DNA of 64,000 bases from positions 1-64,000 of the forward strand of contig CASFGU010000025.1 of assembly GCA_949294395.1 (NCBI GenBank), in the 5' to 3' direction. Shown in pieces: positions 15,008 through 17,772 of the stretch (within the stretch, counting starts at the first letter, position 1; each line of letters begins with the position of its first letter). The notes under the pieces are model-generated. The model ran no database searches and was not told where the DNA came from. It saw nothing but the letters and a program-made list of their open reading frames with translations. The DNA comes from an uncultured bacterium (lineage in GTDB: Bacteria; Cyanobacteriota; Vampirovibrionia; Gastranaerophilales; Gastranaerophilaceae). Both the position numbers and the translations under genes were made by a program.

Positions 15008-15394
15008 ATGCCTACAATTAATCAGCTTGTTCGTCAGGAACGTAAAAAGCTTATTGACAAAACAAAATCTCCTGCTTTGATGGAATGCCCTCAAAGACGC
15101 GGAGTTTGCACAAGGGTTTACACAACAACCCCGAAAAAACCTAATTCAGCTTTGAGAAAAGTTGCAAGGGTTCGTTTAACTAACGGATTTGAAGTTACTT
15201 CATATATTCCGGGTATCGGTCACAACCTTCAGGAACACAGCGTTGTTCTCATAAGAGGCGGCAGGGTTAAAGACCTTCCGGGTGTTCGTTACCACATCGT
15301 AAGAGGCACTCTTGATACTGCAGGCGTTGCTAACAGAGCTCAGAGCAGATCAAAATACGGTGCTAAGAAAAATGCTAAAGGAGGTAAGAAATAA
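15008..15394 (+). CDS. rpsL: 30S ribosomal protein S12
   Basis: This 128-residue protein begins '[15 protein letters not shown]' and has the decoding-site loop '[16 protein letters not shown]', with Lys at position 43, the streptomycin-sensitive state. The C-terminal tail is Lys and Gly rich, as usual. AAAGGAG lies 8 bases before the ATG. The longer frame from 14948 is not used. Its stop overlaps the rpsG start (TAATG), so the two are translationally coupled. Confidence 0.98.
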
Positions 15395-15864
15395 TGTCCA
15401 GACGTTCAAAACCAGCAAAAAGAGTACCTTTAGCAGATCCGGTATACAACAGTGTTGATATATCAAAATTTATTAACCGTATTATGAGACGCGGTAAAAA
15501 ATCATTGGCTGAAAAAATCTTCTACGCAACAATGCAGAGAATAGAAGAAAGAACTAATGAAAAGGCGATGGAAATCTTCCAGAAAGCTTTAACTAACGCA
15601 ACTCCATTACTTGAAGTTAAAGCAAGACGTATCGGCGGCTCAACTTATCAGGTGCCGATTGAAGTTAAAGCTGACAGAGGCTTTGCTCTTGCTTCTTCAT
15701 GGATTATTGAAGCTGCGAAAAAACGCGGCGGCAAATCGTTCATTGACAAATTAACAAATGAATTGATTGACGCTTCTAACGGTTCGGGTTCAGCTTGCAA
15801 AAAACGCGAGGATACCCACAAAATGGCTGAAGCTAACAAAGCTTTTGCTCATTACAGATATTAA
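15394..15864 (+). CDS. rpsG: 30S ribosomal protein S7
   Basis: This 156-residue primary 16S rRNA-binding protein has '[10 protein letters not shown]', 'VDISKFINRIMRRGKKSLAEKI' split over its first helix, and 'RRIGGSTYQVPIEV'. It begins inside the rpsL stop codon. In most bacteria fusA and tuf follow. Here a strong terminator comes directly after the stop and the next gene is on the other strand, so the str operon is only two genes long. Confidence 0.98.
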   Translation: MSRRSKPAKRVPLADPVYNSVDISKFINRIMRRGKKSLAEKIFYATMQRIEERTNEKAMEIFQKALTNATPLLEVKARRIGGSTYQVPIEVKADRGFALASSWIIEAAKKRGGKSFIDKLTNELIDASNGSGSACKKREDTHKMAEANKAFAHYRY

Positions 15865-15884: not shown

Positions 15885-15922
15885 GAAACACCCGTTTTTT
15901 ATTCAGGCGGGTGTTTCTTTTT
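15885..15922. terminator. Terminator of the rpsL-rpsG operon
   Basis: GAAACACCCG and CGGGTGTTTC arms with a T-rich loop are followed by CTTTTTAG on the + strand. It also overlaps the 3' end of the convergent gene at 15921 and can end both transcripts. Confidence 0.85.
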
Positions 15923-17531
15923 AGTTTTTGATAATTCTTTTCAAATCGCTTGCTGCATCGGTTGTTAATATTATTGAATAATCTTCTTCAAGCGTTTTCA
16001 ACACAGAAGGATTCATAGAATTTGGCGGGCATTTTGTAAGGAAAATATTTTTTGCGCCGCCCAGCTTTAGACCTATCATATTTGAAATAGAGCTAACCTC
16101 GCATCTTGTCAGAAAGAATGCAATTCTGTCCGAATTTAGTGGAATCTTTTCAAACAATTTTTCTGAAACACTGTAAATAAGCGGCAGATTGTTCACAAGA
16201 TTTAAATGCAGCATATCCGGAATATCTGTCGTGTAGGAAAAACTAATTACATAAGAATTTTTCGGCAGTGATTTTAAAAGTGTCTTAAAGTATTCCTGAT
16301 TAACATAACTAAACGTGGCAACTCCTATTATAAATAAATACTGAATGTCGCCGTTGTTAAATCTTTCCGCTATGTTATCAAGTTTTTTCTCAAGAAACTC
16401 AGGATTAAACCCTACGATTTCCGGTTGTTTTGACTGTCCTTTAGCAAATCCTTTTGCAGATTTTGCAGACTCAATAACAGGTGCAAAGTTGTCATTTTCT
16501 ATCCTGACAACCCCGCGGGGCTGAATTTGTGCAGTTGTAAAAAGCCGTCCTCTATACAGGAATTCAAGATTTTGAGAGAAATTTTTTGTTAATAAAATAG
16601 CACCCGGAAACGTCGCAAAATCAAGTATGCAATTTTCCATACAGTCGCCAAAGTGTCCTTTTAGATGTTCAAATTTCTTAAAAGATGAAAAAGCGTGTGC
16701 GATAAGCAAATCTCCGTGAGTATAGACATCAATATTTTCATTTCTGGCTTTTTCAAGCAAATCATACAGATTGTCCAGACTCCCGCCTGATACGAGAATT
16801 GCCTTGCCTGCAGAGGTAGAATGCGAAACTTCGGCTTCAGTGAGCGCGCCGTATACATTTATCTGAGCCCTATTAATTTCGCCAAGCAGACGGTTATCAG
16901 CCTCAGCAAGCTTTTCTATTTCTTCTCTTATTGTTTGCATCTGAACTTTTTTATTGTTGAGTGTATTCAGTCCCGATAAAACATTATTAACTGATTTTTC
17001 AGTGTCTACCCCTAAATCTTTTAACATAAGGATATTAAGGCACATACTTTTTAAAACAAATAACAATATTTCCGAAAGATTTTTCTGAGCGGCAGACATT
17101 TTTTTATATTTTTCAAGAAAGACTTTTTCACCCTGAGAAATTATACCCGAAAGATTTGTAGAGCTGTCTATTTTTAGTTCAAATGCAAGATCTTCACAGG
17201 AAATATTTTTTTCAGCACATATATTGTGATAAAGAGTTTTTGCATCATTTAGAGTATCAAAAAGTCTCCTTACAATATTCATCAGCAACCTGTCGCTGTA
17301 ATCTGTAGTGGTAACAAGCGTTGACAATCCTGTGATTACGGCATATTCAATATCGGACGTGTCACTCTCGTTAAACTCTCGAAGTTTTATGGCGTAAAAG
17401 GCAAGCTGCTTTATAAATATAAGCAAAACTTCCTGCAGGGAAGAAATATTCGGTGAGATAGAACACGCCCCTCTTGCGGTACATTCATTATATTCGGCAT
17501 CATTCGATTTGCTGTAGTAGTTATAAAACAT
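15921..17531 (-). CDS. Hybrid-cluster-protein (Hcp) paralogue lacking its metal ligands
   Basis: The 536 residues follow the fold of hybrid cluster protein (hydroxylamine/NO reductase) along their whole length: 'CTARGAC' then 'LQEVLLIFIKQLAFYAIKL', 'GKAILVSGGSLDNLYDLLEKA' in two parts, 'VYTHGDLLIAHAF', 'FATFPGAILLTKN', 'GRLFTTAQIQPRGV'. Compared with Desulfovibrio Hcp from memory, the N-terminal C3 and C6 are Tyr. H244 (in SGHD) is Gly, E268 (in THGE) is Asp, C312 is Phe, the C405 region reads 'GVATF', and the C434, C459 and E494 segments are gone. It therefore probably does not build the hybrid cluster. It sits 10 bases after a glutaredoxin gene on the same strand. Confidence 0.8.
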   Translation of the reverse strand: MFYNYYSKSNDAEYNECTARGACSISPNISSLQEVLLIFIKQLAFYAIKLREFNESDTSDIEYAVITGLSTLVTTTDYSDRLLMNIVRRLFDTLNDAKTLYHNICAEKNISCEDLAFELKIDSSTNLSGIISQGEKVFLEKYKKMSAAQKNLSEILLFVLKSMCLNILMLKDLGVDTEKSVNNVLSGLNTLNNKKVQMQTIREEIEKLAEADNRLLGEINRAQINVYGALTEAEVSHSTSAGKAILVSGGSLDNLYDLLEKARNENIDVYTHGDLLIAHAFSSFKKFEHLKGHFGDCMENCILDFATFPGAILLTKNFSQNLEFLYRGRLFTTAQIQPRGVVRIENDNFAPVIESAKSAKGFAKGQSKQPEIVGFNPEFLEKKLDNIAERFNNGDIQYLFIIGVATFSYVNQEYFKTLLKSLPKNSYVISFSYTTDIPDMLHLNLVNNLPLIYSVSEKLFEKIPLNSDRIAFFLTRCEVSSISNMIGLKLGGAKNIFLTKCPPNSMNPSVLKTLEEDYSIILTTDAASDLKRIIKN

Positions 17532-17541
17532 AATTCCTCTT

Positions 17542-17772
17542 TTATTTTAGATTTTTTGCGTAATCTATTATTACATCGGATTCATACATGTGCATGTTCC
17601 TGTCAGTATCTACAAGAAACGGCACCTGCGCCATTCCGCCAAGTTTCATAAGAGCATCATAATTACTAGCGTCCGTAACATCCTTCGGTGTGAATTCAAT
17701 ATTGTTTGATTCAAAAAATGAAAGCACTTTCCTGCAGTAAGGACAGGTTGGCGAGTAGAAAAGTTCAAGCAT
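17542..17772 (-). CDS. Glutaredoxin-like protein
   Basis: This 76-residue thioredoxin-fold protein has the dithiol active site 'CPYC' at residues 10-13, the cis-proline motif 'QVPFLV' and a C-terminal 'YESDVIIDYA'. It reduces disulfides or glutathione-type adducts. A GGAG site precedes the ATG. It is the first gene of a two-gene operon with the Hcp paralogue, so a shared role in thiol or nitrosothiol stress is plausible, though inferred only from position. Confidence 0.88.
   Translation of the reverse strand: MLELFYSPTCPYCRKVLSFFESNNIEFTPKDVTDASNYDALMKLGGMAQVPFLVDTDRNMHMYESDVIIDYAKNLK

Follow-up and report, generated by a model that had tools for sequence, protein, structure and literature searches.

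Hcp and CODH are standard textbook examples of enzymes with metal clusters and are regarded as very old. The window analysed here, the whole stretch of 64,000 nucleotides from a member of the Gastranaerophilaceae, encodes an Hcp relative in which most residues expected to hold the hybrid cluster are replaced. This raises the questions of which ligands have been lost, whether the protein is still maintained by selection, and what kind of chemistry could have taken the place of the old one.

A full-length Hcp fold

The gene and its immediate neighbour are as follows.

15921..17531, (-) strand: divergent Hcp-fold protein of 536 aa without hybrid-cluster ligands except the E494 equivalent (open reading frame, Pfam, NCBIfam, PDB and model)
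17542..17772, (-) strand: glutaredoxin of about 76 aa with a CPYC motif and a GST_N_3/Glutaredoxin fold, 10 bp upstream of the divergent Hcp

An earlier sequence-only reading described an intact reading frame and a recognisable whole Hcp fold, and both descriptions hold. The frame is open over all 536 aa at 15921-17531 on the (-) strand, the protein matches Pfam Prismane (1e-30), and it aligns end to end with the Hcps of E. coli, a methanogen and Desulfovibrio in the PDB (2.5e-37). The NCBIfam Hcp equivalogs also match (2.4e-67), with scores of 224 and 228 bits that fall below both curated cut-offs (TIGR01703, 360.8 bits; NF003658, 367 bits). An AlphaFold2 model built from five sequences has a mean pLDDT of 78.9 and a pTM of 0.82, its N-terminus being unreliable as residues 1-25 are below a pLDDT of 50, and a Foldseek search with this model ranks Hcp crystal structures first (8cnr, 7de4 and 1e1d; TM 0.82). 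The full-length Prismane/Hcp fold is therefore retained.

A contig scan with the window protein alone returned one locus, a 90%-identical relative in a Candidatus Gastranaerophilales MAG. The divergent gene is convergent with rpsG (window 15394-15864), an arrangement found in 46 loci, mostly glutaredoxin-linked ones.

Fate of the cluster ligands

Ligand numbering of the Hcp clusters follows published work (PMC9311411; PMC10502027). The positions in the window protein were checked against the sequences of D. vulgaris 1e1d and E. coli 7de4, and 114 family members of the divergent form were aligned with canonical Hcp, with 112 of them entering the N-terminal counts. The retained ligands are encoded at two sites.

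17463..17483, (-) strand: codons C17 to C23, C15/C21 kept from the cluster-1 motif, with C-x5-C spacing (alignment)
16098..16100, (-) strand: codon of E478, the kept equivalent of hybrid-cluster ligand E494 (alignment)

Of the seven hybrid-cluster ligands (H244, E268, C312, C405, C434, C459 and E494), the window protein retains only E494. H244 is replaced by G250, E268 by D274 and C312 by F318, the equivalents of C405, C434 and C459 are lost, and C3 and C6 of cluster 1 are Tyr by position and gone across the aligned family. All of these changes in the window protein had been read correctly from the letters. The claim that E494 is missing too was mistaken, as its equivalent is E478 (in 'TRCEVSS'), a column that holds Asp in 76 and Glu in 5 of the 114 members (81/114). 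The four-cysteine cluster-1 motif is incomplete rather than absent: C15 and C21 survive as C17 and C23, which are kept in 100/112 relatives, and 111/112 have at least one N-terminal cysteine. The statement that essentially all ligands had been lost thus stands for most of the hybrid cluster and fails for C15/C21 and E494, because C17, C23 and E478 are kept; the same three residues rule out a complete loss of every ligand.

These losses are shared by the 114 family relatives, orthologues of the kind the earlier reading had proposed to look for. H244 is retained in only 4/114, C434 in 6/114 and C459 in 8/114, the C405 and C312 columns are hardly ever Cys, and the E268 column is mostly D, N or E. 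Among 531 columns ranked by conservation, E494 stands at 102 and the other six hybrid-cluster columns at 143-512. These six former ligand columns drift like average columns and are unconstrained.

New conserved cysteines

Three further cysteines have become fixed in the divergent form.

17217..17219, (-) strand: codon of C105, a conserved cysteine gained in the helical domain (Cys in 101/114)
16101..16103, (-) strand: codon of C477, new cysteine directly before the E494 equivalent (Cys in 107/114)
16029..16031, (-) strand: codon of C501, a cysteine gained in the loop that matches 'GPTLPAF' of Hcp (Cys in 107/114)

Together with C17 and C23, these residues rank 19-34 of the 531 columns. C477 and C501 behave as a unit, with both present in 107 members, neither in seven and a single one in none. 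Each changes six times on the tree, in six losses, and in a sign test on five independent pairs taken on supported branches all five were concordant (p 0.0625, the minimum that five pairs permit). D304, R327 and G328 are also newly invariant. In the AlphaFold2 model from five sequences, C477 and C501 are each predicted to lie in a loop after successive strands. When cluster 1 is lost in the C67Y variant of MmHCP, the loops carrying Glu434 and Trp461 move by 5.3-5.8 Å (PMC10502027). Matched by sequence, C477 and C501 fall in these two loops, which should therefore abut the N-terminal segment and probably lie at its interface.

This expected geometry bears on the main rival to a thiol-based function, a rewired metal site. 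In it the N-terminal site of cluster 1 would have been rebuilt, retained C17/C23 and new C477/C501, perhaps with C105, would hold a [4Fe-4S], [2Fe-2S] or zinc centre, and the glutaredoxin would supply or reduce the cluster. The four or five near-invariant cysteines, all five of which occur together in 83/114 members, are consistent with such a site, as would be the expected contact between the MmHCP-like loops and the N-terminal segment (PMC10502027). However, N-terminal cysteine losses are mostly found in lineages other than those that lost C477/C501. A clade of 10 has lost C23 and retains C477/C501, and 6/7 members without C477/C501 retain C17/C23. Losses in different lineages are unexpected for a single four-cysteine site and weaken this explanation, which is considered rather unlikely.

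Some members of the family vary in length and copy number. A shortened clade of 474-501 aa (L108, L113, L114, L116, L120, L122, L134, L135 and L140) is poorly matched in the C-terminal third, and the C477/C501 pair is still present in most of it. Two or three divergent genes can also stand in tandem (L067:2995-7860 and L056:429-3688, in genomes G011 and G015; G051 is similar), and the tandem copies at L067 and L056 are unlike in the N-terminal cysteines that they retain.

Distribution and selection

The divergent query matches 182/191 genomes of the family and 157/160 near-complete ones. The divergent form itself is present in about 181/191 rather than 182, because G055 is matched only by its canonical copy. 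One genus of the family, with the two genomes G030 and G091, gave no match to either form. Canonical Hcp occurs in 74/191, so that a dependence of the divergent form on it is ruled out. The genome of the window (2.1 Mb, 99.9% complete) is one of those that also encode a canonical Hcp, here on another contig (G000 contig 3, L001), in which all twelve ligand and active-site residues examined are kept.

The tree unites the family's divergent proteins in one clade (support 100) and gives the canonical proteins their own (support 99), and degenerate Hcps from two other families of the order adjoin the divergent clade, the order of the deep splits being uncertain owing to long branches. The canonical copies of the family (L001 and L127-L133) group with Roseburia/Lachnospiraceae Hcp and are patchy in occurrence, which suggests that they were acquired laterally. 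The six Hcps fetched from the class's other families are all canonical, five with all twelve residues and one truncated at its N-terminus. Scans of viral contigs likewise returned only canonical Hcps, on three IMG/VR contigs (L104, L105 and L106) that are labelled viral and could be host sequence.

The divergent Hcp is under purifying selection. Comparison with the 90%-identical relative yields a dN/dS of 0.09 (YN00) or 0.13 (NG86), and for other pairs whose dS is usable the ratio is 0.02-0.12, some dS values being saturated. The earlier proposal that selection has kept the protein without its cofactor is borne out for the hybrid cluster by the retention in about 181/191 genomes and the dN/dS of 0.09-0.13, and also by the drift of the hybrid-cluster columns while the new cysteines are fixed. 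Fast divergence, with identity often only 27-50% within the family, could bring to mind a decaying pseudogene or a sequence error. Such an origin is hardly credible, as nearly all members have full-length open frames and dN/dS is about 0.1; it is ruled out by this low ratio together with near-universal retention and the co-conserved cysteines.

The glutaredoxin neighbour

The sequence-only reading placed a dithiol glutaredoxin in the same operon, and the gene of a CPYC protein does precede the divergent Hcp on its strand, with a gap of 10 bp. It is the only Pfam glutaredoxin found in the window genome, which also has a glutathione synthetase gene. The proposed search for linked orthologues yielded a same-strand glutaredoxin directly upstream of 64/119 divergent Hcps, usually with a gap of 2-16 bp, compared to 0/21 canonical ones. 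Among these 64, the motif is CPYC in 53, CPYS in seven, CPFC in three and CSYC in one, and the CPYS form would fit a monothiol, glutathione-type chemistry.

A tree of linked and unlinked glutaredoxins resolves two families, split at 99% support, which are linked to the divergent Hcp in separate clades. With two families at the same upstream position, the association therefore appears to have arisen more than once; the two types rule out a one-off linkage. The remaining 55/119 divergent members have no linked glutaredoxin, and most of their genomes encode one elsewhere. At one locus (L059) the glutaredoxin is linked although C477/C501 are absent. Operon linkage by itself is no proof of an interaction between the glutaredoxin and the Hcp.

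A possible function

Taken together, an old metalloenzyme seems to have turned into a thiol-based protein. C477 and C501 would occupy adjacent loops on the margin of the third domain, in the former cluster-binding place of E494, where they could form a redox-active dithiol/disulfide or be joined to glutathione or a substrate in a mixed disulfide. The linked glutaredoxin may serve as the reductant of this pair, and the divergent Hcp could then work as a thiol oxidoreductase, a transferase or a redox switch that depends on glutaredoxin. A thiol-based function with C477/C501 as its redox pair and the glutaredoxin as reductant is suggested. That this is a neofunctionalised, clusterless Hcp lineage, specific to the Gastranaerophilales and re-purposed as a cysteine-thiol protein serviced by a glutaredoxin, is the likeliest explanation and is given about an even prospect of being correct.

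The earlier suggestion was instead a regulatory or scaffold pseudoenzyme without catalysis of its own, for example a partner in nitrosothiol or redox signalling. The lost catalytic cluster and the adjoining glutaredoxin are compatible with this, as is the annotation of canonical E. coli Hcp as a protein S-nitrosylase. However, no finding of the analysis pointed specifically to nitrosothiols, and the newly invariant D304, R327 and G328, like the C477/C501 pair, speak for a new site of catalysis or binding. In addition, the divergent form is retained in many genomes without canonical Hcp and is therefore more than just a partner of that enzyme. A purely regulatory role is regarded as improbable. 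With a new, coupled cysteine pair next to the former active site, a thiol-redox function or a rebuilt metal centre is at least as likely as a regulatory or binding role.

More tentatively, the thiol-based reading could be extended to an Hcp scaffold with exchanged chemistry, in which the hybrid cluster was given up, two retained N-terminal and two gained C-terminal cysteines came to form a cofactor site or a thiol active site at the former domain interface, a dedicated glutaredoxin was taken on, and the result is a new enzyme class throughout the family. This is possible, if doubtful.

Relation to known cluster proteins

In the open-access literature, subscription papers being outside the scope of the search, no earlier description of a ligand-less Hcp and no work on Hcp in Gastranaerophilales were found. 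The most apt description of the divergent form is a new variant within the Hcp fold family rather than an Hcp enzyme. Its interest lies in a family-wide lineage that has retained the fold, dropped the cluster, gained a coupled cysteine pair and recruited a glutaredoxin, with C477/C501 as a concrete candidate redox pair. Alongside the partly decayed relatives in sister families, it provides a stepwise natural series of a metalloenzyme becoming something else.

The closest reference is class I Hcp, the hydroxylamine/NO reductase of D. vulgaris (1e1d) and M. thermolithotrophicus (8cnr), with which the divergent form shares full-length homology, the fold (TM 0.82) and a C-x5-C spacing between the third and fourth cluster-1 cysteines. 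In contrast to class I, the divergent form has only the E494 equivalent among hybrid-cluster ligands and two of the four cluster-1 cysteines, carries three new conserved cysteines, and is neighboured by a glutaredoxin rather than Hcr or rubredoxin. The canonical Hcp of the same genome, L001, shares the Pfam Prismane domain at 26% identity and retains all ligands.

The degenerate Hcps of the order's other families (L107, L118/L119 and L123/L124) likewise lack several hybrid-cluster ligands, but unlike the divergent form they have neither the C477/C501 pair nor a linked glutaredoxin. L107 (800-2446) has lost H244, C434, C459 and K496, and looks like an intermediate form because the four cluster-1 cysteines, E268, C312 and C405 are kept. 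CooS-V of Carboxydothermus hydrogenoformans is likewise a deviant member of the Prismane/CODH superfamily with an atypical ligand set (PMC9311411). However, CooS-V still holds a hybrid-type Fe/S/O cluster (PMC9311411), whereas the window protein is without nearly all such ligands.
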